IMG/VR virus record: IMGVR_UViG_3300008267_005788
Coordinates: 1 to 50,653 of that record
Source: a virus
DNA length: 50,653 bases
Reading direction: 5' to 3' (one strand)
Part shown: piece after piece, positions 5,543-43,482 of the stretch
Position numbering within the stretch: position 1 is the first letter of the stretch
Layout of the letters: every line of letters starts with the position of its first letter
Notes under the pieces: model-generated
Told to the model about the DNA's origin: nothing
Database searches by the model: none
What the model saw: the letters and a program-made list of their open reading frames with translations, nothing else
Program-made: the position numbers and the translations under genes

Positions 5543-5782
5543 CTATTTCTCCCACTTTTCTTTAGGACATGCGGTTGGTCCTGGTGCAGGGCTATATACT
5601 TTTTTTGATATTGGACACCCACAAGCACCACATATATGTGTCATAATAAGCTTTTTAAATTCTTTATATTCACATGTGTCACAAATAGACGCACGATATT
5701 CTGCAATTTCTTTTTGTTCTGGGGTTGGGTTAGCTGCTCGGTGCCATGCAACTATAATTTCTTTTATATCAGGTATTTTCAT
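5543..5782 (-). CDS. Small zinc-ribbon-like protein
   Basis: A 79-residue protein with two cysteine pairs that could bind zinc: CDTC at residues 34-37 and CGACGC at 51-56, plus Cys near residue 72. The N-terminal half (TPEQKEIAEYRASICDTCEY) looks helical. Small proteins of this kind are common in T4-like marine phages and lack a known function. The start ATGA overlaps the stop of the upstream sulfotransferase gene, so the two are translationally coupled. This is the last gene of the accessory island. Confidence 0.6.
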   Translation of the reverse strand: MKIPDIKEIIVAWHRAANPTPEQKEIAEYRASICDTCEYKEFKKLIMTHICGACGCPISKKVYSPAPGPTACPKEKWEK

Positions 5783-6462
5783 GTTAAATATTGTAACGGA
5801 TAACCAAACAGTTTATAATCTATATAGTACATGTTTTCTATAGTTTTTACAAAATCTGGATTATTAAAATCTACATTTACCTTACCATCATTAGAACTTG
5901 CATTAAGTTTGGGTATTTCGTTTATGTTATATCCTAATGTGGTATCTATCCAATCGATAAATTCTTCTAATCTTTCGTAATGAAATATTTTTAATTTTGG
6001 ATGATATGCCCAAAATACTTGTGTTTTAAAAAATGCTGAGATAGCACCGTGATAGTTTACACTATCTTGTTTTCTTATATTTGTTTCGGTAAAAATAGTA
6101 GGAAGTGATCCGTGTTTAAGATGACAATTTGTATTAAATGTCGAGTTTAAAAAGTTCACACAACTTTCTGTTGATTGCCACAATAGGTTTACATCAGAAT
6201 CAACATCCATAAACCTATCAGCCAAATAATATATAATAGACTTAAATCTACTTAATGGATGTCGTACTACACTAACAGCAGGTAATACTTTTTTATACAT
6301 CTCACGCAATTCTACATAAGAATAATGATAGTGCTTACCATCTAGTGTATCAGGTTCTGGTTCATTATATTGTGTAAAAAATTTATTAAATGACTGTGTT
6401 GCGGTTCTTGGTACTTTTATCCAAAAATATTCTTGATTGTCAATTAATGATGTCAAAACCAT
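5779..6462 (-). CDS. Sulfotransferase-family protein
   Basis: A 227-residue protein. The N-terminal FWIKVPRTATQSFNKFF fits the 5'-phosphosulfate loop of PAPS-dependent sulfotransferases, and VVRHPLSRFKS near residue 80 fits the 3'-phosphate binding motif (Arg and Ser). The family moves sulfate from PAPS to hydroxyl groups, often on sugars. Three such proteins occur in this island, which fits decoration of a glycan. The acceptor cannot be read from sequence. ATGA overlap with the small zinc-ribbon gene downstream. Confidence 0.75.
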   Translation of the reverse strand: MVLTSLIDNQEYFWIKVPRTATQSFNKFFTQYNEPEPDTLDGKHYHYSYVELREMYKKVLPAVSVVRHPLSRFKSIIYYLADRFMDVDSDVNLLWQSTESCVNFLNSTFNTNCHLKHGSLPTIFTETNIRKQDSVNYHGAISAFFKTQVFWAYHPKLKIFHYERLEEFIDWIDTTLGYNINEIPKLNASSNDGKVNVDFNNPDFVKTIENMYYIDYKLFGYPLQYLT

Positions 6463-6474
6463 AAATAAAATTTA

Positions 6475-7980
6475 TTAGGATTGCGCACAACCGTAACCTG
6501 CACAACTACAAAATTTACCACCGTTATTGTTGCATGTTACATTACCCGTACAGAACCCACCACAGTAACTACGTAAAACTACTACAGTATCATCTTCACT
6601 TATTGTGTGATAAATGTATGTTTCATCGTCACTTAATTCTGTTACAGAGGTATTATATACCTTCATTATAATTAACGAATATCCGATGGAAGCCCCACTA
6701 GCATTTAGAATATCTATTTCCAAAACATAATTACCAGATTCTACTGATGTAGGTGGAGATATGGTTAATATGTTATCCGCTAAAGTAACCCAGTCCGGTG
6801 TGGTTTTTCGTTTTACCCCACGCATAAAATCGTAGATTTTTATAGATGCTGCGGGTGAAGCTAATTGAACTGGGATTGTAAATGTTGTTCCTTTTTGTAT
6901 CTCAATGATTCTATTTTCTTTTGGAGGTGATATAATTAATTCTGAATATGGAATGTATATCAATACGTTAGGTGTAGTTCCGTAAATAGTTTCATTTCTA
7001 AACAACATGTCGTATTTAGCACTTGTTAATATGATATTCTGTATTGTAGAAGCAGAACTTACAAGCGGATTGTCAACTATGAACTGACATACTGCACCAG
7101 ATACTATAGCCGCTGCTATGGATGTTCCAGATTTAGTTTCAATTTCTCCATTTACTGTTAGAACAGAAACATCTATTCCAGGAGCGGTAATATCTACATC
7201 TGGACCCCAATTACTTCCGGCACCAGTACCCCACGAAATAACTCTATCGTATGCGTCTGATGCAGCCACGCCTAACACGGTATTTAATCCTACCGGTGAC
7301 AAAGTATTTGCGTCTACCATATCGTTACCTGCTGCAGCAACAACCACTAATCCGTGATTTTGTAATTCTTGAATTTTACTATCCAGAATAAGACTTTTTG
7401 GTATGTTCCAAGAACAATTTACAACTTTAACTCCCGGAGTTAGTTGATGGTCACTTAATACAGCGTTAAATGCATTCAATAAAACGGAAATGGAAATTGA
7501 TTGTCCCAAAGGTATCTTAACACTTTTCAATGTAGCGTCCGACGAAACTCCTAATGTTTTACCGACTATAATACTTGCTAAAGCAGTTCCGTGTCCTTCT
7601 GTATCAGTAAAAATTCCATCCCAGCTCCAAAGGTGTTGGATATCTGCACTAGATAATTCTTCATGTGTAGTATTTACCCCAGAATCAACTAGATACACTG
7701 TACTTCCTACTCCTCTGTTTCTCGTAACATATACTTGTCTCATTGGTAACTGTTGACTACAAATTCTATTTAAATGCCATTGTTCGGCTACAGTTATTTC
7801 AGAATCAAGTTCGTAAGCCAGTACACCAGTAACAGAGGAAAATTCTGTGTTTGGGGATTCTAGTAAAATAACACCCAACGCAGTAAGTGTTTCATTAATA
7901 GTACATCCTGTAGCTATTAATGAAGATTGTAACGTAGATAAGTCTACATTTTTATCATAAGATATTACATATTTTGCCAT
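6475..7980 (-). CDS. Subtilisin-like serine protease (S8) with Cys-rich tail
   Basis: A 501-residue S8 peptidase. The catalytic triad is complete: Asp 99 in VYLVDSGVN, His 130 in EGHGTALAS and Ser 287 in SGTSIAAAIVSG, with oxyanion Asn 219 in AAAGND. Residues 1-65 look like an I9-type propeptide, which would be cleaved off. After the catalytic domain comes a beta-sandwich (about 345-455), then a C-terminal stretch with six closely spaced cysteines (from about residue 472) that could fold as a small disulfide knot. I see no classical signal peptide. A role in virion maturation or in cutting host surface proteins is inference. Confidence 0.9.
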   Translation of the reverse strand: MAKYVISYDKNVDLSTLQSSLIATGCTINETLTALGVILLESPNTEFSSVTGVLAYELDSEITVAEQWHLNRICSQQLPMRQVYVTRNRGVGSTVYLVDSGVNTTHEELSSADIQHLWSWDGIFTDTEGHGTALASIIVGKTLGVSSDATLKSVKIPLGQSISISVLLNAFNAVLSDHQLTPGVKVVNCSWNIPKSLILDSKIQELQNHGLVVVAAAGNDMVDANTLSPVGLNTVLGVAASDAYDRVISWGTGAGSNWGPDVDITAPGIDVSVLTVNGEIETKSGTSIAAAIVSGAVCQFIVDNPLVSSASTIQNIILTSAKYDMLFRNETIYGTTPNVLIYIPYSELIISPPKENRIIEIQKGTTFTIPVQLASPAASIKIYDFMRGVKRKTTPDWVTLADNILTISPPTSVESGNYVLEIDILNASGASIGYSLIIMKVYNTSVTELSDDETYIYHTISEDDTVVVLRSYCGGFCTGNVTCNNNGGKFCSCAGYGCAQS

Positions 7981-7998
7981 AGAGTTTCCTCTGAAAAT

Positions 7999-8574
7999 TT
8001 AAGAATCTATACCACAGGCTTCAAGACCCCAACTACGTTCCAAACAAAAGTAACAGTTACCACATGCTTCTTTCATACTATATCCACAGGAATAGGTCAT
8101 CTTTAATATATCTAATATATTGTATCGGATATAATAAGATATGATTTCACCTTTATCCATATCTATAAACGGCCGTATGTGAAACTCATTAAAGGATTTA
8201 CCTCTAACCGGTGGTGTATCTCCCTCAATATAATTAGTTGGTTTCAAAAAATCCAAAACTTTGTTACAACCAGAAAAAACACATCCAGGTTCAACCGACA
8301 GTATCATTTCTGCAAATTGTCTAAGAATAAATTTCTTATCAAAATTTTGGAACGGAATTTTTACGTCGAATCTTTGTTCTAACACATCTAAAATTTTACG
8401 ACATCTAATAAAACTTATATTAGATTTACTCATCAGCAAACCATAACACTTTATTTCTAAATCTGGACGTTGTTGTTTTTCTAACAGCAATAGATATAAA
8501 AGTAAGGTACTATCTACCCCACCAGAAAAGAGTACATGAATTTTTTTACAATTTTCTGGTATACGTATTTCCAT
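7999..8574 (-). CDS. QueC-like PP-loop enzyme (putative 7-cyano-7-deazaguanine synthase)
   Basis: A 191-residue adenine-nucleotide alpha-hydrolase-type protein. The PP-loop SGGVDS sits at residues 17-22. The C-terminal C163-x7-C171-x2-C174-x2-C177 followed by LER matches the zinc site of QueC. QueC turns carboxydeazaguanine into preQ0, and phages use preQ0 for queuosine or for modified DNA. The protein is shorter than typical QueC (about 220-230) and no queD, queE, folE or TGT-like gene is in this window, so another amide- or nitrile-forming PP-loop activity in the glycan pathway remains possible. Confidence 0.65.
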   Translation of the reverse strand: MEIRIPENCKKIHVLFSGGVDSTLLLYLLLLEKQQRPDLEIKCYGLLMSKSNISFIRCRKILDVLEQRFDVKIPFQNFDKKFILRQFAEMILSVEPGCVFSGCNKVLDFLKPTNYIEGDTPPVRGKSFNEFHIRPFIDMDKGEIISYYIRYNILDILKMTYSCGYSMKEACGNCYFCLERSWGLEACGIDS

Positions 8575-8585
8575 ATAAATATCAG

Positions 8586-8690
8586 TTATAACCCCATTTC
8601 CTTCCGAATTTGGGTGGCACTAATGGCTTCAGTTTGGGGGTCTAGGTCAATCTTTTCTACCTTATACCCCACATCCCGACCATAATATCT
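8586..8690 (-). pseudogene. Out-of-frame remnant of nucleotidyltransferase C-terminus
   Basis: In a different frame from the kinase gene, 34 codons read RYYGRDVGYKVEKIDLD, then a segment ending ISATQIRKEMGL and a stop. ISATxIR is the closing motif of NMN adenylyltransferase/NadM-type enzymes and YGRDVGY is typical of phage members. It starts where the kinase reading frame goes wrong, and only about 25 residues separate HDGH from ISAT instead of the usual 80 or more. I read it as the true C-terminus left after an internal deletion with a frameshift. Confidence 0.75.
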
Positions 8691-9189
8691 TCTCAAACAG
8701 TTTGAGATGACCATCGTGGAACGGCTGGAAACGACCAATCATCAACCCAGTCGGTGATTGATATTCAAACTTTACGTTCAACCTTTGAATCAGCTCTACA
8801 ATAGGTAATATCTGTTCTTCTACATTTCCCCATTGTCTGATAAGGAAATCCACATTATCTAGTTCTGGCCGTTCAAATACCTTATTAGTATCCTCAAATC
8901 GTCCAGACTCAATCGTATCCATAAAGATTGTAAGATGCGCATCAAATATCCGTCTAGTATGTTCTGTGGGACACACAAAATCTACGACAGATACCCGTGT
9001 GCCACTGATTTCACATAACTTACTCATTCGTTTAGCTTGTCTGGTACGACCGTCTTCGGAAAAGTCCCAATCGTTGAACATTTTTCGAACTTCATCTGCG
9101 TTGAAGTAAGCGGCACCTAACTTGTCCGCGAGTACTTTCGCTAACGTAGTTTTTCCAGACCCAGGCAATCCCATAACTAAAATTTTCAT
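8662..9189 (-). CDS. APS-kinase-like P-loop kinase fused to truncated NMNAT-like nucleotidyltransferase
   Basis: A 175-residue product. Residues 1-145 are a P-loop kinase of adenylylsulfate-kinase type: Walker A GLPGSGKTT at 7-15, and a lid-like region around RRIFDAHLTIFMDTIESGRF. Residues 150-168 (GLMIGRFQPFHDGHLKLFEK) open a nucleotidyltransferase domain with its HxGH-type HDGH, but the frame then breaks and stops after ILWSGCGV. The rest of that domain is missing except for a shifted remnant at 8586-8690. The kinase part looks whole, so it may still make PAPS or phosphorylate a sugar; the second domain should be dead. Confidence 0.75.
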   Translation of the reverse strand: MKILVMGLPGSGKTTLAKVLADKLGAAYFNADEVRKMFNDWDFSEDGRTRQAKRMSKLCEISGTRVSVVDFVCPTEHTRRIFDAHLTIFMDTIESGRFEDTNKVFERPELDNVDFLIRQWGNVEEQILPIVELIQRLNVKFEYQSPTGLMIGRFQPFHDGHLKLFEKILWSGCGV

Positions 9190-9198
9190 AACACCGTC

Positions 9199-9405
9199 CT
9201 ATTTTTTAATTCCATATGGTATCCATTTATACCAAAGTCGTTCATGAACAAAATATATAACTGGTTTTATTACCAACTCAATAAACCCCATACTACTCGC
9301 TATTGTTATATTTTTTGTAAATATATACGATATTATAACTGTTGTCAAGGTTCCTACTATTCTGTATGTTATTGTTTTTGCGATATGTCTTTTTACTTGA
9401 ATCAT
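9199..9405 (-). CDS. DUF2061 small membrane protein
   Basis: A 68-residue protein of the DUF2061 family, with the pattern KRHIAKTITYRIVGTLTTV ... IELVIKPVIYFVHERLWYK. It has two membrane segments, at about 13-30 and 36-52. DUF2061 proteins often sit near sulfate-activation genes; here it is 9 bases upstream of the APS-kinase-like gene and just after a sulfotransferase gene, which agrees. ATGA overlap with that upstream sulfotransferase gene. Function unknown. A second copy lies at 15955-16164. Confidence 0.8.
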   Translation of the reverse strand: MIQVKRHIAKTITYRIVGTLTTVIISYIFTKNITIASSMGFIELVIKPVIYFVHERLWYKWIPYGIKK

Positions 9406-10037
9406 AATAACTCGCTTGTAAATTGATTATATAATTGATTAAATTCGTTCACATCTATTAATAGATCTTCATCATTAACTATTGGAGGTATATGTCTATA
9501 TGTTATTCTGGTAGGTGGTAGTCCTAACGATTTTAGAAATTGTTGAGATTGATTTATAATGTATGTATCATAAAAACTATAATCGCTATACATTTCTAAT
9601 TTCATATGATTTTTGTACTCTATAAGTTTTTCTTTTATTTGTTCCTCCGTGAATCGTACACTACCTTTTAATTTAATTCTTTCAGTACGATTTCCAAATA
9701 AATTTTGGCTTACGTTCATTATTAACGAACGTAATATTTGCTTTCTAACATCGTTTGGTTTTAAAAATATTAACTTATATGTTGAACTTTTAAATAAAGG
9801 TATCACATCATAACTATAATTACTTAATATTTTTATTACTGGTAATGGTGTTTCTTGCAATATTGATTTATATATTTCTATATTTTGTTCTACCGTGTGC
9901 CCATATTTTAGATTAAATGGTTCACAATGTTCTATAGAAAAATTTGAGTATCTTGTGTCACTCAACAGCAAACTATTATTTATCAGACTCCATGCGAAAG
10001 TAGATGCTGTTCTAGGTAAAGAAATAATGCAATACAT
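9402..10037 (-). CDS. Sulfotransferase-like protein
   Basis: A 211-residue protein. The N-terminus IISLPRTASTFAWSLINNS fits the 5'-phosphosulfate loop of PAPS sulfotransferases, and a LIFLKPNDVRKQILRSL region near residue 88 sits where the 3'-phosphate motif should be, with Arg and Ser present but the usual RxP missing. It is followed by DUF2061 and the APS-kinase-like gene, so the three could supply and use activated sulfate. Diverged, so the reaction is less sure than for the gene at 5779. Confidence 0.6.
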   Translation of the reverse strand: MYCIISLPRTASTFAWSLINNSLLLSDTRYSNFSIEHCEPFNLKYGHTVEQNIEIYKSILQETPLPVIKILSNYSYDVIPLFKSSTYKLIFLKPNDVRKQILRSLIMNVSQNLFGNRTERIKLKGSVRFTEEQIKEKLIEYKNHMKLEMYSDYSFYDTYIINQSQQFLKSLGLPPTRITYRHIPPIVNDEDLLIDVNEFNQLYNQFTSELL

Positions 10038-10038
10038 T

Positions 10039-11958
10039 TTATTTTTTTCTTAGAAAGTTCTTACCAAAACTTCTTCGTCTTGCAAAAAATATACTTTCCA
10101 TAAACCACCCCAAATCTTTACTTCTAATTGGATCGTGTGGATATGTTACATTAACTACAACATCTTCTTTTTTTAACTTACTGTCTGTGTGTAGTATATA
10201 TTCCAATATATTATACTTTGTTTTAATTTCATAATTTATTAAGTTTCCTTGTTTCGCAACCACAGACTCATTTAACAGGATTAAGTCTGTATATATTTCA
10301 TTCGGTAAATTGAATGTCTTTAAGTACTCGTTTATTAAGCTGTACATTTTGTGGTACGTTCTATTTGAATGAACATTAAATAATGTTCTATACTGATTTG
10401 TAGACGCCGTTATTGTAACAGGTCCTAACTCTGATATAATTTGAGTGCCGTTAAGATACCACTCTTTTATAATATCAGTCATTGTGGTTTCTTGTTCATT
10501 CCAAAAACTATCATTTTGTAAAAAGTTTCTGAAACCATTATAAAACTGATTATATGAAACATTCAAATATTTCCTCAAGAACCTCGCTACATACTGTGAA
10601 AACCCACCAGTATGCCAAGTTATCAAGAACCAAGATAATTTATACCCTTCTACCATTTCATTTAAACTCATAGTAGATGTACTGGTTACTATCTCAGAGT
10701 ATTCTGGTGCTTCATTATCTACTCCATTTGGAAAGTAATCCAATACCTTTTGTCCTCGTATTTTAAATAAAGAACGTTGAGTTAAGTTCATCTCTGCATT
10801 TTCTAGTAGCTGTGCCTGCCAAACTTCAACACTATCATGCTGACCCACCTCAAATACTCCGTACATAGTATTTTCCCAACTCCGTAACGTTTCTCCAGGT
10901 AATCCCAAGATTAATTCAACATTTAATGGTACTCCATCTTTTCTACACTCACTAAAAATTTCATTAATTTTGTTAATACCCATATTGTTTCGTTTAATGG
11001 TTTTCAGAGTATTTTGGTCCATACTTTGTAAAGATATGGTCAAACCATTATTAAAGTGCCCACTCGTGATAAGTTTCTTTGCTATCTGTACCACTTCTGA
11101 TTGTTGGTTTTTTGCCCAACTCCATCCTGTACGATACGGATACCCATATTTGGTCTGTACTTCAATTAACTTATCTACAATTAGATTGTCTCTGTCTATA
11201 AAGATACCAAAGTTGGAATCTGCAACATCCATATATCCAATCTTGTTTTGAGCCATCCATTCTATTTCGTGAAATACCCGTGTCAGATTAAATTTCTTCA
11301 TCTTGGAGTACGTCAATGACCCCCAATCACAGAATGTACAATGATATGGACATCCTCTATTTGTTTCCACCACCGCATTCCATTCCGTTTCTAGTGGTAA
11401 TATAGTATCAAACACTCCACTTAAATACGGAGAAGGAATGGCGTCTAACTCATCAATCCGTTTACTTGTCCCCGTATCTTTACATTCACCGTTTTGATTT
11501 ATCAATAATCCAACAACGTCTTGGTAATCTTGATTATTAATCCAACGTTCTAACAGTTCCGTAAAAGCATATTCTCCTTCTCCTTTAACAATCACATCAC
11601 AGAACGGCATTACCTCTGAGAATATTTTAGGATTCGTAATTGGCGGTTCGGGTCCACCAAACACTATGAGTACATTAGGGTTTAATTTCTTAATGGTTTG
11701 TGCTAATTTAAAGTTGTAATTTCTATTCCAGACATATGTAGAAAACGCAACTATATCATTTTTTGCCAATGTACTTGCCAATTCTTCAATCGATTCTCTT
11801 TTATACACTAACTTATCTAATCGTAAATTATTTTTTATAATTTTATTAGTTAATGCATAAGACCACAACATACCAACACTATAAGGAAGATATGCTGCTA
11901 CTCCACCAGGTCCTTGTCTAAAGTTTGGTTGTACAAAAGAAATAGAATAACGTGTCAT
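10039..11958 (-). CDS. B12-binding-type radical SAM enzyme
   Basis: A 639-residue protein. Residues 1-150 have the Rossmann-like fold of a B12-binding domain (VFGGPEPPITNP, VKGEGEYAFTEL), but I do not see the DxHxxG motif, so any cobalamin binding would be of the non-canonical kind. The radical SAM cluster motif is C203-x3-C207-x2-C210 (CPYHCTFCDWG). The remaining 280 residues are a helical C-terminal domain. Such enzymes often methylate unactivated carbons or rearrange substrates in antibiotic and glycan pathways. Its ATG overlaps the stop of the 2OG oxygenase gene (ATGA). Confidence 0.85.
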   Translation of the reverse strand: MTRYSISFVQPNFRQGPGGVAAYLPYSVGMLWSYALTNKIIKNNLRLDKLVYKRESIEELASTLAKNDIVAFSTYVWNRNYNFKLAQTIKKLNPNVLIVFGGPEPPITNPKIFSEVMPFCDVIVKGEGEYAFTELLERWINNQDYQDVVGLLINQNGECKDTGTSKRIDELDAIPSPYLSGVFDTILPLETEWNAVVETNRGCPYHCTFCDWGSLTYSKMKKFNLTRVFHEIEWMAQNKIGYMDVADSNFGIFIDRDNLIVDKLIEVQTKYGYPYRTGWSWAKNQQSEVVQIAKKLITSGHFNNGLTISLQSMDQNTLKTIKRNNMGINKINEIFSECRKDGVPLNVELILGLPGETLRSWENTMYGVFEVGQHDSVEVWQAQLLENAEMNLTQRSLFKIRGQKVLDYFPNGVDNEAPEYSEIVTSTSTMSLNEMVEGYKLSWFLITWHTGGFSQYVARFLRKYLNVSYNQFYNGFRNFLQNDSFWNEQETTMTDIIKEWYLNGTQIISELGPVTITASTNQYRTLFNVHSNRTYHKMYSLINEYLKTFNLPNEIYTDLILLNESVVAKQGNLINYEIKTKYNILEYILHTDSKLKKEDVVVNVTYPHDPIRSKDLGWFMESIFFARRRSFGKNFLRKK

Positions 11959-12740
11959 TGTCCCTTTGGTTTATATCCATAATCTTCGCCACCTTGTCCT
12001 ACAAAATGTCCATCCCAATTTTCTTCTTCATATAATTTATGATGAGAATATTCATTGGATTTGTAAGTACTTCTGTGTGGCGGATTGTCCTTATCTGGTT
12101 CCGATGTACTAATGTAGTAAAAGAATCGAATTGCACACCGTCCAATATCCTCAGGAGCATTTACTGCACTCACCCGATGATAGGGTCCATGACGTACATT
12201 TTCATTGATAACAAATCTATTGAACCGTGGTGAAACGGATTCAATTAATGTTGCATCAGGATTAACATCAATATTATCTGTGTAGTATTGAATGTGTCCA
12301 CCCCATTCATCTTTCCAATCTGGTGTAATGTATAATAACGATGTTAACTTTCTGTGTAGACGGATTCTGTCGTTCCAGTTAAAGTCATAGTGACACCCAA
12401 GATTACTTCCATTTCGTATAATAGAATATCCCGCGCCCACCAAATGTGGGTCAGGAAGTAATCCAGTAATACCTGTCATCTGTTCTAGCTCATAAAGAAA
12501 TTCACCCGAATGCATGATGTCATATGTCACACGGTGTGCTGTTGGAAGAGAAATTAAATCATTGAATTCTTCCATACGTGAACCTGCGCGAGTGAATACT
12601 GTCCACCCACCCTTTGGAGCGTTTACACATTCTTCATACAGAGCGTAAACTGTATCTTCATCTAAAAAATTATCAATCTTTGTTTTACCGAATCCATATT
12701 TGGTTTTACTACTTTCCCATTCAGTCTTTTTATTAATCAT
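11955..12740 (-). CDS. 2-oxoglutarate/Fe(II) oxygenase (prolyl-hydroxylase-like)
   Basis: A 261-residue protein. The iron ligands are visible as HYDFNWN (HxD) and HGPYHRVS (distal His), and RCAIRFFYY supplies the Arg for the 2-oxoglutarate carboxylate. Between them, SLLYITPDWKDEWGGHIQYY is the usual family core. The enzyme would hydroxylate a sugar, peptide or small molecule with O2. It is followed directly by the radical SAM gene (ATGA). Confidence 0.85.
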   Translation of the reverse strand: MINKKTEWESSKTKYGFGKTKIDNFLDEDTVYALYEECVNAPKGGWTVFTRAGSRMEEFNDLISLPTAHRVTYDIMHSGEFLYELEQMTGITGLLPDPHLVGAGYSIIRNGSNLGCHYDFNWNDRIRLHRKLTSLLYITPDWKDEWGGHIQYYTDNIDVNPDATLIESVSPRFNRFVINENVRHGPYHRVSAVNAPEDIGRCAIRFFYYISTSEPDKDNPPHRSTYKSNEYSHHKLYEEENWDGHFVGQGGEDYGYKPKGQ

Positions 12741-12743
12741 AAT

Positions 12744-13091: not shown

Positions 13092-13095
13092 AGTT

Positions 13096-33746: not shown

Positions 33747-33747
33747 A

Positions 33748-35556: not shown

Positions 35557-35559
35557 GGG

Positions 35560-36567
35560 TTATACCCGTTCAACATCTAGTGTAATACAATGTGGGCCAC
35601 CGCTTAATGTTCGTGCATGTCTTAATCTAACTGGTATAGATTCTATTCCTAATTTTTTTAGTAGTTTCATCAACATAATTTGATTCTGTTCCACCATAAC
35701 TAAGTTTTCATTGATAGAAAGAATATTCATACCTAACCACGGTGACGCAGGACACCAATCTGACATAACTTGAGTTGGATATGGTTCTGGTGCATTAATT
35801 TTAATCCAATTTCTTAAAAAATCAGGTGTATTGTATACGTTTACTCTGGATGGATTTACCAATACCAATCCTTCTCTTAAAAATACAAATGTGGTATCAA
35901 TATGAATGTACGCGTATATATTTTCTGCTAAATGTACTTTATAATGTTCTGATATGTTTTCCCGTAACCAGTTTTGTAGATATTCCGCCCCGACACGATT
36001 TCCTGTATTAGATACCAAATATAAAATATCGTAGTTTGCTTTAAGTACATTTGCTGCGTCAAATACAGGTTCACTATTCATCAATGTACTTCTGGACAAG
36101 TCACTACGGTCATATAAACTATCTTCTGCAACTGGTTTTGGGAACGTGACCCAACTTTCAGGTGTAAACAATTCCTTATATTTGTCCGCCTCATCTCGTC
36201 GTTGACGTAAGGTCATGGGAGTAGCTATGACTTTATCTTTAATTACTAACATCGAATCACGGGGACAATAATCATAATATGAGTCATTAAATGGTCTGTC
36301 TCCTGATATTCTTGGTGGCCTATATACTTCTACGCCTAAAGATATTAATACTCTTTCTATTTCTTCTAAATCTTCTTGTGTTTCTTCCAAGACTTGCGTA
36401 GGGTATGGGCCAGTTGGAATAGTGCTAAATTCTTCATCCGTATAGTGTGCGTAGTCTACACAGTGCAATGCCTTGTCTTTAATAGTTGGAATTTGTGCAC
36501 CACGGTGAGTTCCTAATATTATTTTTTTAAGTTGTCCCCACTCGTTATTTACATTAGGTGTTATCAT
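35560..36567 (-). CDS. Amidinotransferase-family protein
   Basis: A 335-residue protein. The triad is visible: Asp 170 in SEPVFDAANV, His 222 in AYIHIDTTF and Cys 327 in SGGPHCITLD, and YCPRDSMLVI holds the usual Arg/Asp. This set is seen in glycine amidinotransferase and in inosamine-phosphate amidinotransferase (StrB), which moves an amidino group from arginine to an amino sugar. Next to aminotransferase and glycosyltransferase genes, guanidino decoration of an amino sugar is plausible. Its start overlaps the upstream GT gene by 14 bases. Confidence 0.88.
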   Translation of the reverse strand: MITPNVNNEWGQLKKIILGTHRGAQIPTIKDKALHCVDYAHYTDEEFSTIPTGPYPTQVLEETQEDLEEIERVLISLGVEVYRPPRISGDRPFNDSYYDYCPRDSMLVIKDKVIATPMTLRQRRDEADKYKELFTPESWVTFPKPVAEDSLYDRSDLSRSTLMNSEPVFDAANVLKANYDILYLVSNTGNRVGAEYLQNWLRENISEHYKVHLAENIYAYIHIDTTFVFLREGLVLVNPSRVNVYNTPDFLRNWIKINAPEPYPTQVMSDWCPASPWLGMNILSINENLVMVEQNQIMLMKLLKKLGIESIPVRLRHARTLSGGPHCITLDVERV

Positions 36568-37990
36568 CTAAAACCTCAAACAAATTTTTTATAAAAAATT
36601 CTTTCATTAATTGTTGATTTGCATACGACAAAAATAATTCTTGATTAGGTACTAGGATTTCTTCAAAAATAGAATGATACCAGTTATGAATTTCTTCTAT
36701 TGATAATTTTGATAATCTTTCGATTTCATCTATTATCATTTTGAAACGCTTTGCATTATCCGTTTCATCGTCATAACTCTCATTTATAAACGGAGAGAAC
36801 GTTTTAAATCCAAACCTTCGTATTTCTTTAAGTCCATTTGCTGGACCCATAAAAATAAATGGTTGAAGGTGTCCAACAGGTTTCCAAGTTTTCTCTGAGA
36901 AATATCCACCGCTTTCAAAAAAGTTTGTTTCTGGAATTATGTGTATATAAGATTGTAAATATATTTTTTTATTTTCGAAGTTAAATCCCCACACTTCCTC
37001 TAAATTTTTATAGTCTACTGTACTAACTGGTTTTGTTTGCTTCATTTTTTCGTATTCATTTTTTACAATGTCATAGGAAATTTCATTACCTAGATGAAAT
37101 TCACTGTATGCATGTTCTTCTAAACTGAATACTTGCATAGTATTTAAATCATATGATACGGAAATATCGTCTATTATATTCAAATGATTAAATAATAATA
37201 CAGCATACAAACGATGTGGTCGTAATCTTCTATTTAACATCAAAAACTTTTTCTGTCGCAGTATTTTATCCGTTACTTCATTTTTAGATACAACACTACA
37301 TACATTTGCATTTTTTCCGAATGTAGTTTTTTCATTATTCAATAATTTTACAAACTCATTTGCTTTATCTTTTAGTGACCAAATGTGATACAATACCTTT
37401 ATCTTTGGTAAATTTTTATCTTTGACATCAGGTCTAGTTGTATAATTTTCATACCATTCGTCAAAGTTTTTTTGAATGTTATAATCCGACATACAAAATA
37501 TTATTTTTTCCAAAGGGAAGTTAAACTCTTCGGCGTCTTTATATATAACTTCAAAAAATTCATTATTCAATGTACCTTCATTTGAATAATTTATAAACAA
37601 ATAAAAATTTTTCTTATTTTTAATTAATACCTTTACTTTTTCTGGTATAAAATGTGTAAACGATCTATGCATGTGTAAACTTTCATGTAGACCAAAAGTA
37701 CAGCTACCTCCACCGAACGGAGATATTACATACAGATAAATACCATCTGTGTCGTGCAAATTTTCATAGACTTCGTGTGTAGAAACTTCTCCAGTAACAG
37801 CATATTCAATGGTTCCTTGTCCGTTCCACACAGAAACACCATCGTAGTATTTTTTTTCTAATTGTGATATAATACTATTTTGTTTATTAAAATCATTATC
37901 TACATAAGTGTAAAAATAATCAAAATTTAAACAATTTTCTAAAGGTCCATGCGGACCTATATAATCGTTAACTAAAAAGATATCTTTCAT
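36554..37990 (-). CDS. Putative GT-B glycosyltransferase, island family member D
   Basis: A 478-residue member with the full signature: LMLNRRLRPHRLYAVLLF at about 247, HIIPETNFFESGGYFSEKTW, QPFIFMGPANGLKEIRRFGF and TFSPFINESYDDETD. The longest of the five, with an extra N-terminal part of about 230 residues. Directly followed by the amidinotransferase gene (14-base overlap) and coupled to member E by ATGA. Confidence 0.55.
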   Translation of the reverse strand: MKDIFLVNDYIGPHGPLENCLNFDYFYTYVDNDFNKQNSIISQLEKKYYDGVSVWNGQGTIEYAVTGEVSTHEVYENLHDTDGIYLYVISPFGGGSCTFGLHESLHMHRSFTHFIPEKVKVLIKNKKNFYLFINYSNEGTLNNEFFEVIYKDAEEFNFPLEKIIFCMSDYNIQKNFDEWYENYTTRPDVKDKNLPKIKVLYHIWSLKDKANEFVKLLNNEKTTFGKNANVCSVVSKNEVTDKILRQKKFLMLNRRLRPHRLYAVLLFNHLNIIDDISVSYDLNTMQVFSLEEHAYSEFHLGNEISYDIVKNEYEKMKQTKPVSTVDYKNLEEVWGFNFENKKIYLQSYIHIIPETNFFESGGYFSEKTWKPVGHLQPFIFMGPANGLKEIRRFGFKTFSPFINESYDDETDNAKRFKMIIDEIERLSKLSIEEIHNWYHSIFEEILVPNQELFLSYANQQLMKEFFIKNLFEVLDDNT

Positions 37991-39363
37991 AAACTAATAA
38001 GATGTAAAAATTTGTTTCTAAGACGTTGTGTTTTTGTAAACTCTACTAGTAAATTTCTATTATGCACCAATTTAGGATATACAGAAAAATACAACTTATG
38101 TAAATCTTCTAAAGGTAAAGAACATAATTTTGTTACACTTCGCATGATTGAAGATAATCTTTCATTTTCATCTTCTATGGTATCATAGCTTTCATCAAAA
38201 ATTTCTGGGAATGTCTCGAATCCCATTTTATGTAGTTCTGCTAAAGTATTGGGATTCCCATATACTATAAACGGATGAAAGTATATCATCGGTCTTATCG
38301 TTTTTTCTGTAATAAATACTGGCCCACTCTTTACATCAGTTTCGGTTACAAGAGAAAAATATGTATCGTTCCACATATCTCGCTTAGTAAAGTAATTGTG
38401 CATATCTGCTACATAATCCGGATCATCATAATCTATAACAAATGGATATTTTTCTTTTATTAACAATTTGTATAGAACATTTTGTTCTTGTTCACAAAAT
38501 TTATCAAATTCTGGAGTTTTAAATAAAGATACCAATCCTTTATCAAATACATCACTTCCTATTAAGTCCAACACCAATTTTGGTCTGTGAAATCTACTGC
38601 TGTTTCTGTTCAGACATAGAAAATGCTTTTTACGTGTACCCCCGATAGTAGGTCTTGGGTCGATTGAATATTCCGTACCTCTTTCAACGATACTATTTAT
38701 TTCGTAATTATTCGTTGTTCCCTCATATCTAAGAATATTTTGTCCGGGATTATCATCTATACAAAAATTAATAGTATCACATGTCATAAATGAAGATACA
38801 TTATTTCTATTTAAGAAATCTTGATAAATTTGTTTTATATTAGATGTATTTGTTATAAAGACTATTTTATTCTCTTTAAGATTATGTTTGTTTGCGAACG
38901 ATTGAAATTTTTTAAAGAACTCATCTTCGTATATATAAGCCCCTTCCTTTTCATCAATAAAAACTAATCTTACACTATCATATTGTTTAAATATTGATAG
39001 TGTTTTTTTACTGAATAAATCATCTAAGTCTATGCTTTTAATATATTTCGTTATACCTTGCTCATGAACAGTAGTTATAACCAATATATTATAATCATCT
39101 CTGAGTTGCTCGACACTAATATCTTGCATCAACACTCTATGTGAGCAATCATTGATAGGTTCTGAAAGTACGTTAAACATATCTTCTGTACTATTTGATA
39201 CAAACACATTATCATCACGTACCATTCTTGTACTTACATTAGGTTTAATATCTAACCTATCATTAGTTTCACTAAAAATTATAGGAAGGTCTTTTTGCTG
39301 ATATCCTAACGGTAAATAACCGTTTGGTGTCATAAATTCATATAAAAAATTTATTTGTGGCAT
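37987..39363 (-). CDS. Putative GT-B glycosyltransferase, island family member E
   Basis: A 458-residue member: LCLNRNSSRFHRPKLVLDL, SLVTETDVKSGPVFITEKTI, HPFIVYGNPNTLAELHKMGF and TFPEIFDESYDTIED. Members D and E sit side by side and both have longer N-terminal halves than A-C, so they may come from a tandem duplication with later divergence. Starts 1 base after the radical SAM gene. Confidence 0.55.
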   Translation of the reverse strand: MPQINFLYEFMTPNGYLPLGYQQKDLPIIFSETNDRLDIKPNVSTRMVRDDNVFVSNSTEDMFNVLSEPINDCSHRVLMQDISVEQLRDDYNILVITTVHEQGITKYIKSIDLDDLFSKKTLSIFKQYDSVRLVFIDEKEGAYIYEDEFFKKFQSFANKHNLKENKIVFITNTSNIKQIYQDFLNRNNVSSFMTCDTINFCIDDNPGQNILRYEGTTNNYEINSIVERGTEYSIDPRPTIGGTRKKHFLCLNRNSSRFHRPKLVLDLIGSDVFDKGLVSLFKTPEFDKFCEQEQNVLYKLLIKEKYPFVIDYDDPDYVADMHNYFTKRDMWNDTYFSLVTETDVKSGPVFITEKTIRPMIYFHPFIVYGNPNTLAELHKMGFETFPEIFDESYDTIEDENERLSSIMRSVTKLCSLPLEDLHKLYFSVYPKLVHNRNLLVEFTKTQRLRNKFLHLISL

Positions 39364-39364
39364 G

Positions 39365-40777
39365 TTATAACTTACAAAAATGATAGAATGTCTCTAGTTC
39401 GGGAAAGGTATCTAAGAAGCTTGTGCCTCTACGTTGGTCATATTGGTCAATAAATGCAGCAAAATTCTTTCTTTGCTCTGCATTCTCGGGCTTATCAACC
39501 CCCATATTTTTCTGTACGAGGTAGTACAAACGTTCCATTCTGTGTATTTCGTGCTCATAGAATCCTCTAGTAGCCAATGGATACCATCTACCGAATTGCT
39601 GATTTTTATACATGAACGTTACACAATCTTCAATGTGCGACAAAAAGTTTTCGGTTAATATCCAAGCTGATAAGAACTGTGGATGTCTTAAATATGGTAC
39701 ATCTACTGCTATTGGGAGTTGTCGTTCTGTCTGGTGCGCATATCTTAATTTTAAATCCAACATATCTTTTAAGAAATCTAAGTATGAAGTCACCGACAAT
39801 AAGTTATATGTAGACATCATAGTTACTCTACTGTCCGGCACTTCACTTAGAATTCTATCTACGTTAGTTAACCAATAATTGTAATCTAATCCAAATCTGG
39901 CGTATTCAGCTCGCTTACCATGTGCTTCATTACTAGTAAATAATTTGAATTCCTTGACAGCCTTTTTATCTTGTATTATAGATATCTTTTCAATAAATTT
40001 GTCAACGAGTTCTTTTGGACCACCCAAGTTACTATTGATATTAAATTCCATTTGCGGTTGTGGGTTGTCTATTAAGTAATCCAATACTTTAAATGTATGC
40101 TTACTTAACAACGGTTCACCACCAGTAATTCTAAACGTATGGAGATGTCTTACTGCATCCGGCCACCATTTCCAGAATGCATCGATGTAAGGATTTTCTT
40201 CTGATTGAAGAATTGGTAACCCTTGACCTTTTTCTAAATGATCTATCCCATTAAATGTTGTCGTTGGTAACTTATATGGACCATGCTGTTTAATTTCTTG
40301 CATCCATGTAGTAGAATACAGTGGGGAGCAATATGCACACTTAAAGTTGCATGTAGTATCAAAGTCAATTTCCATATAAGATGGATTTACATTTACATCC
40401 CATGGCAACTTATCAAGTGTAGATATGTGAGGAAATGCCCATTCTTCGGAACTTTTTACAATTCTATCACTAAAAACTTCTCCATCATGTTCACCCTGAG
40501 GGTTATCTTCAACTCTCCAGCAATAATCACATTCGTCTGGTCGTTGTCCATCTAACATTTGCTTTCTTAATTCTTTCTTGTACTTTGTATTATGTAAAGC
40601 TGAAGGGTTTTTTACCAATTCTTCTAATGGAATTGGATGTACTTTTGGATGATGGCAACTATGTGTCGTTCCTGTCCCTAAATGGATAGTAACTTGTTGC
40701 CACTTTGCGGCACACATTGTTGGACTAATAACGGATAATTGCTTTTTTGCTGACCTAAATAAGTCTATTGCTGTCAT
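39365..40777 (-). CDS. Twitch-domain radical SAM enzyme
   Basis: A 470-residue protein. C143-x3-C147-x2-C150 (CNFKCAYC) is the radical SAM motif and RITGGEPLLSKH the SAM-binding part; upstream Cys 22, 41, 83 and 86 (CDYC) fit the second twitch cluster. The layout matches that of the gene at 20810, but the two share little outside motifs. Such enzymes often occur with glycan genes in T4-like marine phages. Substrate unknown. Confidence 0.85.
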   Translation of the reverse strand: MTAIDLFRSAKKQLSVISPTMCAAKWQQVTIHLGTGTTHSCHHPKVHPIPLEELVKNPSALHNTKYKKELRKQMLDGQRPDECDYCWRVEDNPQGEHDGEVFSDRIVKSSEEWAFPHISTLDKLPWDVNVNPSYMEIDFDTTCNFKCAYCSPLYSTTWMQEIKQHGPYKLPTTTFNGIDHLEKGQGLPILQSEENPYIDAFWKWWPDAVRHLHTFRITGGEPLLSKHTFKVLDYLIDNPQPQMEFNINSNLGGPKELVDKFIEKISIIQDKKAVKEFKLFTSNEAHGKRAEYARFGLDYNYWLTNVDRILSEVPDSRVTMMSTYNLLSVTSYLDFLKDMLDLKLRYAHQTERQLPIAVDVPYLRHPQFLSAWILTENFLSHIEDCVTFMYKNQQFGRWYPLATRGFYEHEIHRMERLYYLVQKNMGVDKPENAEQRKNFAAFIDQYDQRRGTSFLDTFPELETFYHFCKL

Positions 40778-40778
40778 A

Positions 40779-41408
40779 TTATTTATATCCTAGTGTCATA
40801 AATCGGTGAAATGGTTTTTCTGGTCCTCTACATTCTAATTGACCTGTAAAGATTATTTTACCCATGTAATTATTTTCATTAAACTCTTCTAATGTATCAT
40901 AACATCTGATATGGTCATAACAATCATAAAAATTATTTCCTTGAATTATAATTGGTACGTCATACGGTACGTTATGCATCCATTTATCATACGTTTCTTG
41001 GGTAATATGTTCTGTACTTGTATTAATTATTAGTTTGGGGTCTAAATAACTACTAAATTCCCCCATATCTCTTGTTAAAAAATATATTTTCCAATCGCTA
41101 TCCGACAGAGACTTACCATATCTAATACAATTCTCGTCCTTGTCAATATTAAATACAGAAGTTGGAAAATTATCAACTATAAGTTGAGATAATATACCAT
41201 ACCATCCTCCCATAATATAAACTCGGCCAGATAAATGCGGTATATGTGTCTTTAATGTGTTTATTATCCAAGATTTACTTCGAACTTGACTGTCCCAAAA
41301 ATTTTCAAGTAGTCTATATCTTTCTTCGTTAGAACAATCACGTATTACATTCATCCAATGTATTATGCGTGAAGAACTTATTTGTAGAACATCATCCATT
41401 TTGTCCAT
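40779..41408 (-). CDS. Class I SAM-dependent methyltransferase-like protein
   Basis: About 209 residues from an ATG at 41408 behind GAGGAA; an ATG at 41399 is also possible, and a TTG at 41420 is less likely. GRVYIMGGWYGILSQLIVDN is motif I and VFNIDKDENCIRYGKSL motif II, followed by LIINTSTEHI. The family is clear, the substrate not. Its start overlaps the upstream gene by 17 bases (or 8). Confidence 0.65.
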   Translation of the reverse strand: MDKMDDVLQISSSRIIHWMNVIRDCSNEERYRLLENFWDSQVRSKSWIINTLKTHIPHLSGRVYIMGGWYGILSQLIVDNFPTSVFNIDKDENCIRYGKSLSDSDWKIYFLTRDMGEFSSYLDPKLIINTSTEHITQETYDKWMHNVPYDVPIIIQGNNFYDCYDHIRCYDTLEEFNENNYMGKIIFTGQLECRGPEKPFHRFMTLGYK

Positions 41409-42510
41409 ACATTTCCTCAAAATGTTGTTCTAACCAAGTCCAACTGACCGTATTACGGAGTGCTTCTGGATTCTTTTCATGCTGCTGTGCATATTCATGT
41501 CCATCCTTGGCACCCTTCAATACCCATTCTGCGTTTTCCCCCTCCGCAAACGCCATCCATCGTTGTAACCAGAGGTGTGCATCCGTAGAATGTTGTAATG
41601 TCAACTTCACGGTTTCACGGAACGCGGTTCTCCATGCTTCTAACGGACTAGTTGCAAAGTGTGCTTCACTTACCGTAAGTGGAATGGAAACCGTTTTACT
41701 ATATTGGGTAAAGTCGAGTCCGAAATTAGCCGGCGTATTCAATACGAGATTAGTATTATAACAGACAATGCCCATATGTCCGTATTCTAATCTATTACTC
41801 ATATTCTTTGCTTGAAATACTACGTGCGCGTCGGGAATGGCGTGTACTGGATAATTAAATACCGTAACGTCTGTGAGGTAATTCTTTCCAGTAACTACGA
41901 AGAACTGTCGTGCCTCTCCTGCCAAATCTACACACCGATGAAACGCCTTTCTCCGTCCGTCAATATTACTAATACGAATTGCTTTAGGATATAATGTGGT
42001 TAAGTGTTGCCAATTCTTATCTGCGTTGGTTTCACCATTACTAATAAAGAATACAGGAATATCGGTTGCTCTTGGTTTACGAATTACCGATACAGTTCGT
42101 ACTGCCGATGCAGGATTAACTTCAATAATTATTTTTTCTGACCATTCCCACGGATTGTCACTTTCCTTCTTCATCTTTTCAATGATTTTCTTCTCTCCGG
42201 CCCATCCTGCAATAAACACTTGTTCGGCATCCTTACGAACGACAAACACTACAGGTCCAGAAATGTGTTCCCAAGTAGCGCCGTTAACACAACGATACAA
42301 TTTCTTTTCTGCAAGTGGCATATCTACTATTTGGACATAATCAAATACCGTGAGTTCTTTTTCACCTGCTTGTGCCCATCCGTCTGCATCCTTAACGGTT
42401 TCTATATAATCAGTAAACCATCCAAGACTCCGTACCCACGGTTTTGTTTCTATAATCCAATATTTCTTAAATAAATCACTATGTGCTAACCACGACTCAT
42501 TATTAACCAT
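41392..42510 (-). CDS. Conserved phage protein, glycosyltransferase-like C-terminal domain
   Basis: A 372-residue protein. From about residue 160 on, VFFISNGETNADKNWQHL, RISNIDGRRKAFHRCVDLA and FFVVTGKNYLTDVTVF match a protein often seen next to glycan genes in T4-like phages, with a layout like a GT-A enzyme that has lost its DxD (here VTGKNYL). The N-terminal 150 residues look like a diverged copy of the same kind of domain. I would not assign an activity. Overlaps the GT2 gene by 8 bases. Confidence 0.5.
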   Translation of the reverse strand: MVNNESWLAHSDLFKKYWIIETKPWVRSLGWFTDYIETVKDADGWAQAGEKELTVFDYVQIVDMPLAEKKLYRCVNGATWEHISGPVVFVVRKDAEQVFIAGWAGEKKIIEKMKKESDNPWEWSEKIIIEVNPASAVRTVSVIRKPRATDIPVFFISNGETNADKNWQHLTTLYPKAIRISNIDGRRKAFHRCVDLAGEARQFFVVTGKNYLTDVTVFNYPVHAIPDAHVVFQAKNMSNRLEYGHMGIVCYNTNLVLNTPANFGLDFTQYSKTVSIPLTVSEAHFATSPLEAWRTAFRETVKLTLQHSTDAHLWLQRWMAFAEGENAEWVLKGAKDGHEYAQQHEKNPEALRNTVSWTWLEQHFEEMYGQNG

Positions 42511-43027
42511 TCTTCTTTACCTTTTTTGTATGTCTCTTAATCCGTTGTTCTTGATTTACACCTAGATTTGGACCAAATGCCCATTGTCCAACGTGACGAA
42601 CTTGGAAACTAAGATTCATATCTACTAGAATCTTATATCCGGCTTTTCGTAGTTTACTTTGGAAGAAGAAATCTTCACCGTGCCATTCTTTATCTTTATA
42701 CTCAAACGCAAAATACGGAGGTACTATTTTGTTTAGCACTTCGGTTTTCATCATCATACATCCCATAAACATCATATCTGAGTCTAGCCACAATGCATAA
42801 TCAGATTTCATTAATAATGCTTGTTGTGCAAGACGTTCACGTTGAGTCAATAGGATAGTACTTTGGTCATATATTACATGAACATCAATTCCTGCCATAG
42901 TCGTAGTTTTCACCAGTTCTACTAAACATGCACTAAACAAACTGTATACTGTTTCTCTACATGGAACAAGAATTGCTAATTTAGTCGGTCTGGTATGCCA
43001 AATACTCATATCATAGATACTTTTCAT
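42503..43027 (-). CDS. GT2-like glycosyltransferase, probably with an internal deletion
   Basis: A 174-residue protein. LAILVPCRETVYSLFSACL and RERLAQQALLMKSDYALWLD are a GT-A start, DSDMMF (residues 82-87) the metal-binding DxD, then MGCMMMKTEVLNKIVPPYF and GEDFFFQSKLRKAGY the C-terminal motifs. Usual relatives have some 40-60 residues between DxD and the GCMxxxxxVF step; here they adjoin. The reading frame is kept. The protein could be a natural short form, but an in-frame deletion is more likely. Confidence 0.7.
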   Translation of the reverse strand: MKSIYDMSIWHTRPTKLAILVPCRETVYSLFSACLVELVKTTTMAGIDVHVIYDQSTILLTQRERLAQQALLMKSDYALWLDSDMMFMGCMMMKTEVLNKIVPPYFAFEYKDKEWHGEDFFFQSKLRKAGYKILVDMNLSFQVRHVGQWAFGPNLGVNQEQRIKRHTKKVKKNG

Positions 43028-43482
43028 AATCCTGCTACTCCAGACGCTAATGTAATTGCTTGACTTGTGATTTCTCGAATCATTGTGGTAATTTCTTGTA
43101 CTCGTTTGACAAACAGTTGATAATCCGCTAATGGAAATTGAGTAACTGTATTTAATGTTTCAATACTATATTTGTCAAAAATAAGAATTTCCATTGCTCC
43201 TTTACGTGACCATTTTTCAATCATCGCAAATCTAGCGGTATTTGGGTCGTTATTTAATAAATTCAATAGGTGTTGAGGATTATGTTGTGCTAGAACTTTT
43301 TCTAGAAATGTAATACGTTCTGGCCACTCACCCTTTTCTTTCAGATATTGTAATTCATATAACAATTCACAAAGAGCTTTTTTGTCATAACCAATAGAAA
43401 CCCACCGGACATACCTTTCTTCGTAGTCCGATGGGTTAGTATTAACTGCTGCCAATAATGTTTCAAATGTTATTTCACTCAT
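43024..43482 (-). CDS. Hypothetical helical protein, first gene of the accessory operon
   Basis: A 152-residue, Leu- and Glu-rich helical protein (ALCELLYELQYLKEKGEWPE, ITFLEKVLAQHNPQHLLNLL) with no family recognised. A sigma70-like promoter and a dyad lie upstream, so it is the likely first gene of the 38-kb island. Its stop overlaps the start of the GT2 gene (ATGA). Confidence 0.6.
   Translation of the reverse strand: MSEITFETLLAAVNTNPSDYEERYVRWVSIGYDKKALCELLYELQYLKEKGEWPERITFLEKVLAQHNPQHLLNLLNNDPNTARFAMIEKWSRKGAMEILIFDKYSIETLNTVTQFPLADYQLFVKRVQEITTMIREITSQAITLASGVAGL

Follow-up and report, generated by a model that had tools for sequence, protein, structure and literature searches.

Large clusters of sugar genes have been known in T4-like phages since the advent of cyanophage genomics, their function being left open between stuffer DNA and a change of the host surface. 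The cyanophages P-SSM2, S-SSM7 and S-SM2 carry lipopolysaccharide (LPS) clusters of this kind (PMC3037559), with an E1-type gene, a phosphoheptose isomerase gene and nucleotidyltransferase genes in S-SM2. The host recognition cluster of the pelagimyophages is a hypervariable island of tens of kb in the structural region of a T4-like phage, placed between VrlC and gp14, which combines tail fibres, glycosyltransferases (GTs) and radical SAM genes (PMC7029224); neither LPS nor radical SAM genes are reported there for its freshwater members. Here we describe the glycan island (g07 to g47, positions 5779-43482) of the 50,653-base linear IMG/VR virus record IMGVR_UViG_3300008267_005788, which was analysed as a whole and is called the window. 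The island is a variant of the host recognition cluster and LPS islands, and its chemistry is specific: most likely it centres on the remodelling of GDP-heptose.

Three families of steps of the Campylobacter jejuni type are represented in the island, namely a C4-dehydrogenase (g38), a C3/C5 epimerase (g37) and C4-reductases (g31, g29). The short-chain dehydrogenase/reductase (SDR) g38 matches PDB entries 6vo6/6vo8 over nearly its full length at E=7e-110, compared to 3e-24 for the runner-up; we take these entries to be Campylobacter Cj1427, the accession not being found in the papers cited for this enzyme. Cj1427 is a GDP-heptose C4-dehydrogenase according to PMC10680097 and PMC7949155. The epimerase g37, whose start lies approximately 22 aa further downstream in relatives than in the window call, is about 14 orders of magnitude closer to the Campylobacter GDP-4-keto-heptose epimerases (7an4/7m14/8db5, E approximately 1e-38) than to classical RmlC (5e-24). 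In the PDB g31 matches the GDP-L-fucose synthase family (1.7e-26), and it matches NF047922 at 1e-37, under that model's cut-off; the intact g29 orthologue of the relative G003 matches GDP-fucose synthetase at 2.7e-29. The original prediction, made from the letters alone, had named keto-sugar epimerases/dehydratases and an RmlC-like epimerase, and profiles confirm three SDR genes (g29, g31, g38) as well as g37. A rhamnose or 6-deoxyhexose pathway was considered and rejected, as no recognisable 4,6-dehydratase occurs in the window and g37 is nearer to the heptose epimerases. Judged from sequence, the core is most likely a GDP-heptose remodelling route whose product is derived from GDP-heptose and is not a 6-deoxyhexose, and the activity of its enzymes on GDP-heptose is predicted.

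The island had been expected to hold a full pathway, which is not what we found. A SIS-type GmhA was detected in none of the cassette phages of the window's clade (three weak matches elsewhere among 32 records), a sugar NTP-transferase in none of the cassette phages tested, and a GHMP kinase is not among the Pfam matches in the window; the enzymes leading from sedoheptulose 7-phosphate to GDP-heptose were not found in the cassettes of the clade. A Wzx-type flippase (Polysacc_synt) occurs in 0 out of 15 records, and the Pfam profile matches of the window include neither a polymerase nor an exporter nor a priming transferase; as many phage records are fragments, absence from them is not proof of absence. 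The lack of upstream heptose, NTP-transferase and export genes argues against a full pathway and for an input from the host, which is presumably GDP-heptose. Any change of the host surface would in turn rely on host export.

A further hint towards heptose chemistry arises from the loci that share the E1 pair. The pair consists of g36 (E1 alpha, 210 aa, 64-88% identical to the copies of other phages) and g28 (E1 beta, for which relatives have 171 aa), thiamine pyrophosphate (TPP) enzyme subunits of a minimal, two-domain kind. Both predicted E1 pieces are confirmed by profile, but the window ORF (open reading frame) read as E1 beta joins the tail of a broken epimerase to E1 beta. In the 80 phage loci selected by a match to g36, the companions are g37 (78), E1 beta (66), g31 (65), g29 (63), g38 (61) and the GT g32 (61); in the 23 bacterial loci selected in the same way they are E1 beta (22), g29 (15), g31 (14) and g37 (14). 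Two bacterial loci are partly annotated and both hold a GHMP (HddA-like) kinase. Alongside this kinase L311 encodes an HddC-like NTP-transferase, a Wzt ABC exporter and a SIS protein resembling GmhA, and L318 a GDP-mannose-dehydratase-like SDR. This gene content places the E1/SDR/RmlC set in a heptose/surface-polysaccharide context. The E1 pair may add a C2 branch to the sugar, as AviB1/B2 do, or make a heptose precursor. We further observed that g19 stands alongside the E1 core in 41 out of 80 phage loci, and that a contig binned as a Pelagibacterales metagenome-assembled genome (L309) carries a phage-type cassette (E1 alpha identity 79%); it is probably a phage contig.

The island is conserved as a unit. 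Among 79 related loci gathered by the helicase g02, collinear island orthologues stand at the same site in G007 (38/38), G003 (34/35) and G029 (33/33), a collinearity matched by 0 out of 2000 gene-order shuffles, and G008 keeps 20 out of 22 in the order comparison. A second T4-like lineage, whose capsid stands at 56-61% to that of G008, has an 11-gene core (g43-g38-g37-g36-g35-g34-g33-g32-g31-g29-g28) in the same order. On one side it is bordered by a giant fibre-like gene and on the other by the terminase/capsid genes, all on one strand; fibre proximity of the E1 loci was judged on stretches longer than the 10-kb flanks. Island content is nevertheless hypervariable: helicases are 91-92% identical yet content differs in G004, G005 and G006. 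Edge genes are kept with different middle genes in G004, G006 and G016, while G005, G010 and G021 have no cassette, the site in G010 and G021 holding other glycosyltransferases (GT17, GT2, GlcNAc-type).

The island genes are under purifying selection, with a median pN/pS of 0.18 (116 comparisons), comparable to the low 0.21 of structural (virion) genes; the values are rough because dS is often near saturation, and low ratios are general nonetheless. Sullivan et al. left open for the cyanophage LPS clusters (PMC3037559) that they are stuffer DNA, and a transient assortment of host genes that do not act together would fit the several broken genes of the window copy. The pN/pS values and the identical order of 33-38 genes in three relatives and of 11 in the second lineage largely refute this explanation, which we consider extremely unlikely. 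Order and selection argue for a real function of the island. The neighbourhood comparison proposed beforehand, in which genes scattered singly would have spoken against a common pathway, gave conserved order in the relatives, and the genes do belong together as one conserved, selected and functionally coherent glycan cassette.

The location of the cassette bears on its target. Its approximately 41 genes span about 38 kb of the minus strand, most ORFs abutting or overlapping by a few bases, which bears out the predicted tight, one-strand packing between fibre genes. The G+C content of approximately 0.29-0.37 compares to 0.40-0.44 in the flanking fibre and baseplate genes. Transcriptionally upstream lie the fibre genes g48-g53, and downstream the fibre-like g03-g06, the SNF2-type helicase g02 and the T4 baseplate protein g01 (Pfam T4_baseplate 1e-11). 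In the window's clade and in the second lineage alike, the island is within the structural region among tail fibres. The window is a fragment without a capsid gene, and a Gp23-type major capsid protein is present in the relatives G005, G008, G010 and G029. The capsid relatives of the clade are Flavobacterium immuto (55% for the G008 protein), a Microcystis phage and Rhodothermus RM378. Placed by these capsids, the phage appears to group with Far-T4-like/Flavobacterium immuto phages and not with marine cyanophages, which corrects the marine T4-like affinity first suggested; Flavobacterium-type hosts are an initial guess based on this capsid similarity.

The glycosyltransferases form the second large part of the cassette. 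By alignment and shared motifs g17, g25, g32, g41 and g42 are one divergent family, for which no Pfam or PHROG match was found. The AlphaFold2 model of g41 (pLDDT 90.3, pTM 0.91) has GT-B enzymes as leading Foldseek matches with a probability of up to 0.99, but only at E approximately 1e-3 and TM 0.33-0.44, which makes it a distant family. Its members are predicted from this model to have two Rossmann-like domains in a GT-B fold and transferase activity; in the viral library g41 matches many uncharacterised phage proteins. In the g45 model the C-terminal half has a pLDDT of mostly 70-90 and resembles WrtF, SunS/ThuS and the capsid GT of Chlorella virus PBCV-1 (Foldseek probability approximately 1.00). 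This added GT-A domain brings the total to about seven (g17, g25, g32, g41, g42, g45, g46), g46 lacking in the window 57 aa found in relatives. Of the predicted at least five GT-B-like and one GT2-like enzymes, the fold was recovered for g41, where the suggested structure prediction was run, and g46 is GT2/GT62-like; the five GT-B-like proteins remain without a profile match and g45 had been overlooked. Phage glycosyltransferases act on DNA in other groups (cited in PMC12619734). A thymidylate-synthase-family enzyme, needed for the usual precursors of hypermodified bases, was however not found in 19 out of 21 records, including every clade record tested, and the island is placed among virion genes; we consider phage DNA an extremely unlikely substrate.

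The decorating enzymes are summarized in Table 1. Profiles confirm the predicted pyridoxal phosphate (PLP) aminotransferase (DegT-type g16), carbamoyltransferase (g20, both domains), amidinotransferase (g40, StrB1-like), two 2-oxoglutarate (2OG) oxygenases (g13, g39) and four radical SAM enzymes (g12, g23, g35 and, by NCBIfam, g43). Three other groups hold in part: of the sulfotransferases g07 and g30 are just under the Pfam cut-off and g11 shows a motif, of the methyltransferases g26 has a profile match and g44 has none, and of the six SGNH proteins g18, g21 and g22 have weak profile matches while g15, g24 and g27 have motifs. The amidinotransferase g40 is far nearer to StrB1 (1bwd) than to other PDB amidinotransferases (approximately 1e-38), and g20 resembles novobiocin carbamoyltransferase, GdmN and TobZ in the PDB. 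Such a tailoring set of amidinotransferase, carbamoyltransferase (here like those of novobiocin, geldanamycin and tobramycin), sulfotransferase and oxygenases is also found in antibiotic clusters, and the product could be a diffusible aminoglycoside-like small molecule in place of a polymer-linked glycan. Against this stand the approximately seven glycosyltransferases, the failure to find a scaffold synthase or transporter, and the occurrence of the same core in bacterial loci of the surface-polysaccharide type; we regard a small molecule as very unlikely.

We favour, at about an even chance, the reading that GDP-heptose is remodelled, decorated and built into a glycan in the cytosol, most likely on the phage's own fibres. 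GDP-heptose from the host would be remodelled by g38, g37 and the C4-reductase-like g31/g29, with the minimal TPP enzyme g36/g28 providing a two-carbon branch or heptose precursor. The sugar may then receive an amino group (g16), a guanidino group (g40), a carbamoyl group (g20), sulfate (g07, g30) and methyl groups (g26, g12) and undergo oxidation (g13, g39), and the sugars would be joined by the glycosyltransferases. A phage fibre such as the Ser/Thr-rich g48 could be the acceptor, giving a serotype-like coat which varies among related phages. The lack of a flippase and of a sugar NTP-transferase in cassette phages, and of GmhA in the clade, is as expected for host-fed cytosolic protein glycosylation, and together with the location among virion genes the lack of export genes favours a virion target. 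This is in agreement with the other glycosyltransferases which relatives without the cassette carry at the same site, and with the fold match of g45 to the capsid GT of PBCV-1. Families, folds, gene order, selection and the absence of upstream and export genes are established computationally.

Several points weigh against a fibre target. Each of the five independent cassette phages in the clade has a fibre rich in (Gly-Ser/Thr-Ser/Thr)n next to the island, and few of their relatives do. Outside the clade, however, Ser/Thr-Gly repeat fibres occur in only 3 out of approximately 48 cassette phages tested. The repeat fibre was therefore rejected as a general cassette partner, this being true only within the clade, and the clade member G028 has a repeat fibre with no cassette detected. 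The acceptor, every reaction and the order of steps are proposed from sequence, the substrate assignments through homology. Timing is a further point. The sequence TTGACA-N17-TATATT lies 31-33 nt upstream of g47 orthologues in G003, G007, G008, G029 and G006, making six phages with the window, and in G003 and G007 g39 is preceded by a perfect TTGACA-N17-TATAAT; sigma70-type sites are no commoner window-wide than in shuffles, and it is the conserved position that counts. The fibre and baseplate genes have instead TATTTATA about 30-43 nt upstream. On the simplest reading the island has its own promoter, probably acting earlier than that of the fibres, and with the late-like TATTTATA on the fibres its expression may be early and uncoupled from them. 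This weakens the virion reading, which nevertheless stays plausible, since the sugar enzymes may be produced ahead of their acceptors.

As observations on the motif itself, TATTTATA (minus-strand reading) stands approximately 25-37 nt before fibre genes at 5514-5521, 45915-45922, 49083-49090 and 49730-49737 of the window. In relatives it mostly precedes virion genes and could serve this phage group as a late promoter. The T4-type late promoter TATAAATA was tried and showed no enrichment, its reverse complement TATTTATA being found before fibre genes instead.

Early modification of the host is the main rival explanation: phage glycosyltransferases would add or change sugars on the lipid-linked units of O-antigen or capsule, so that the receptor is masked and competing phages are shut out. 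The conserved sigma70-type promoter keeps this in play, capsules are where GDP-heptose chemistry is typically found, the loci of the bacterial homologues are of the polysaccharide type (one has the Wzt exporter), and the authors of the pelagimyophage study propose such a role for the host recognition cluster (PMC7029224). The missing flippase, exporter, polymerase and priming transferase would oblige host export to accept the product, and in two lineages the island is embedded among virion genes. We consider this target a serious candidate that is somewhat unlikely. A bolder form of the fibre reading, that a whole group of T4-like phages coats its tail fibres with a phage-specified, guanidinylated, carbamoylated, sulfated and perhaps C2-branched heptose-containing glycan, made in the cytosol from host GDP-heptose, and swaps glycan cassettes in the manner of serotypes at a single site linked to the fibres, is doubtful.

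Table 1. Features of the island and its promoter side, with positions in the window and the basis of each assignment.
Feature	Assignment	Position	Strand	Basis
g07	Sulfotransferase-like	5779..6462	-	Pfam Sulfotransfer_2 5e-4, score 20.9, cut-off 22
g08	Subtilase with Cys-rich tail	6475..7980	-	Pfam S8 1.5e-25
g09	QueC-like PP-loop protein	7999..8574	-	Pfam QueC 9e-10
g10	APS-kinase-like P-loop kinase + nucleotidyltransferase, truncated in window (254-256 aa in relatives)	8662..9189	-	
g11	Possible sulfotransferase	9402..10037	-	P-loop-like N-terminal LPRTAST motif only
g12	B12-binding radical SAM, KedN5-like C-methyltransferase family	10039..11958	-	NF033712 4e-76, below its cut-off
g13	2OG-Fe(II) oxygenase	11955..12740	-	Pfam 2e-12
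g14	Small membrane protein (about 115 aa in relatives)	12744..13163	-	87-89% identity to three relatives
g15	SGNH-like	13096..14178	-	Motif only
g16	Minimal DegT-type aminotransferase (212 aa)	14127..14765	-	Pfam 7.5e-20
g17	GT-B-like glycosyltransferase	14762..15958	-	Aligned with g41 family
g18	SGNH-like	16164..17144	-	Pfam Lipase_GDSL_3 5e-4, below cut-off
g19	DUF7783-like protein	17146..17550	-	Profile
g20	O-carbamoyltransferase, both domains	17558..19189	-	Pfam 2e-62 / 1e-58
g21	SGNH-like (DUF6071)	19180..19902	-	Pfam 1e-7
g22	SGNH-like (DUF6071)	19899..20813	-	Pfam 4e-5, below cut-off
g23	Twitch radical SAM protein	20810..22066	-	NF033640 3e-94
g24	SGNH-like	22178..22837	-	Motif only
g25	GT-B-like glycosyltransferase	22834..23949	-	Aligned with g41 family
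g26	SAM methyltransferase	23955..24719	-	Pfam Methyltransf_24 1.4e-15
g27	SGNH-like	24712..25623	-	GDSFTWGEG + late His motif only
g28	E1 beta (Transket_pyr), N-terminus lost, fused to g29 tail	25625..26404	-	Profile and relatives
g29	Second C4-reductase-like SDR, broken in window (327 aa in relatives)	26349..26870	-	Intact G003 copy
g30	Sulfotransferase-like	26883..27893	-	Pfam Sulfotransfer_1 5e-4, score 19.9, cut-off 22; PAPS-type motifs by eye
g31	GDP-fucose-synthase-family SDR, likely GDP-4-keto-heptose C4-reductase	27890..28852	-	PDB and NCBIfam
g32	GT-B-like glycosyltransferase	28842..30020	-	Same family as g41
g33	Conserved protein kept in cassette order	30017..30949	-	No Pfam or PHROG match
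g34	HAD (PNKP-type) phosphatase	30927..31379	-	Pfam HAD_PNKP 3e-20
g35	Radical SAM protein	31376..32566	-	Pfam Radical_SAM 1.5e-12
g36	Minimal E1 alpha TPP enzyme subunit	32551..33183	-	Pfam E1_dh 3e-15
g37	GDP-4-keto-heptose 3,5-epimerase-like, RmlC superfamily	33195..33812	-	PDB 7an4/7m14/8db5
g38	GDP-heptose 4-dehydrogenase-like SDR (Cj1427-like)	33748..34716	-	PDB 6vo6/6vo8
g39	PhyH-type 2OG oxygenase	34718..35500	-	Pfam PhyH 4e-18
g40	Inosamine-phosphate amidinotransferase-like (StrB1), catalytic Cys kept	35560..36567	-	PDB 1bwd E=1.2e-78
g41	GT-B-like glycosyltransferase	36554..37990	-	AlphaFold2 and Foldseek
g42	GT-B-like glycosyltransferase	37987..39363	-	Shared motifs, aligns with g41 family
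g43	Twitch radical SAM protein	39365..40777	-	NF033640 E=2e-94
g44	Possibly SAM methyltransferase	40779..41420	-	Sequence only; no Pfam match
g45	C-terminal GT-A glycosyltransferase domain, DxD degenerate in window	41392..42510	-	Model and Foldseek
g46	GT-A glycosyltransferase (GT2/GT62 Anp1-like, DxD)	42503..43027	-	Intact relative matches Pfam Anp1
g47	Conserved protein (152 aa), first island gene	43024..43482	-	87-93% identity in close relatives; no Pfam/PHROG match
Promoter	Sigma70-type TTGACA-N17-TATATT, 33 nt before g47	43516..43544	-	Conserved in relatives
g48	Ser/Thr/Gly-repeat tail fibre, S74 chaperone C-terminus, frame-broken in window, candidate acceptor	43746..45885	-	

Some genes show features of their own. 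The aminotransferase g16 is without the C-terminal half of the DegT family, and the copies of relatives are likewise 209-213 aa long. In g39 the metal site reads HQN for the expected HQD, HQN being kept in close homologues and HQD in distant ones. The subtilase g08 has an intact catalytic triad and recurs at the far edge of the island in relatives; it may act as a protease in fibre maturation. In a third phage lineage (G035, 1-96000; L369-L373) eight g23-like twitch radical SAM copies stand beside a rearranged cassette. Compared to the orthologues in G003, G007 and G029, the window has frame breaks or deletions at 8575-9189, 25625-26870, 42503-43027 and 43746-45885 (g10, g29/g28, g46 and g48), which may be assembly errors or real decay.

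The comparison with described systems sets the island apart in several ways. The pelagimyophage cluster belongs to another lineage, and the available parts of PMC7029224 do not mention a GDP-heptose dehydrogenase/epimerase/E1 core, guanidinylation or an order-conserved cassette. The cyanophage LPS clusters lie near tRNAs, hli03 and phoH rather than fibres, with their function left open (PMC3037559); S-SM2 has upstream heptose genes, which this island is without, and in this comparison no match to g42 or g43 was found in the phage collection. In C. jejuni homologues of the C4-dehydrogenase (Cj1427), 3,5-epimerase (MlghB/DdahB) and C4-reductase (MlghC/DdahC) are clustered as they are here, but there the pathway begins at sedoheptulose 7-phosphate, includes four further enzymes and leads to the capsule, and an E1 pair or StrB1-like gene is not described in the accessible parts of PMC10680097 and PMC7949155. 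The pairs AviB1/AviB2 and Pau11/Pau12, similar to pyruvate dehydrogenase (PDH) E1 and making C2-branched sugars, share the E1 alpha/beta pair in a sugar cluster, and Pau11 and Pau12 are set apart by their described size of 325 and 345 aa (PMC4425429) compared to 210 and 171 aa.

A search of the open-access literature yielded no phage GDP-heptose cassette. Chlorella virus PBCV-1 encodes nucleotide-sugar enzymes and several soluble glycosyltransferases for capsid glycosylation without export. The GT-A domain of g45 resembles its capsid GT by fold, and the systems are analogous, not related, PBCV-1 being a eukaryotic double-stranded DNA virus with other sugars and the fibre acceptor proposed here being a candidate. 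The missing upstream and export genes yield a clear prediction for virions and purified enzymes, and an uncharacterised GT-B family is seen to be spread through uncultured phages. As far as we found, what this island adds to the known T4-like sugar islands is the GDP-heptose remodelling core, the conservation of order across lineages, the StrB1-like step and this GT-B family.

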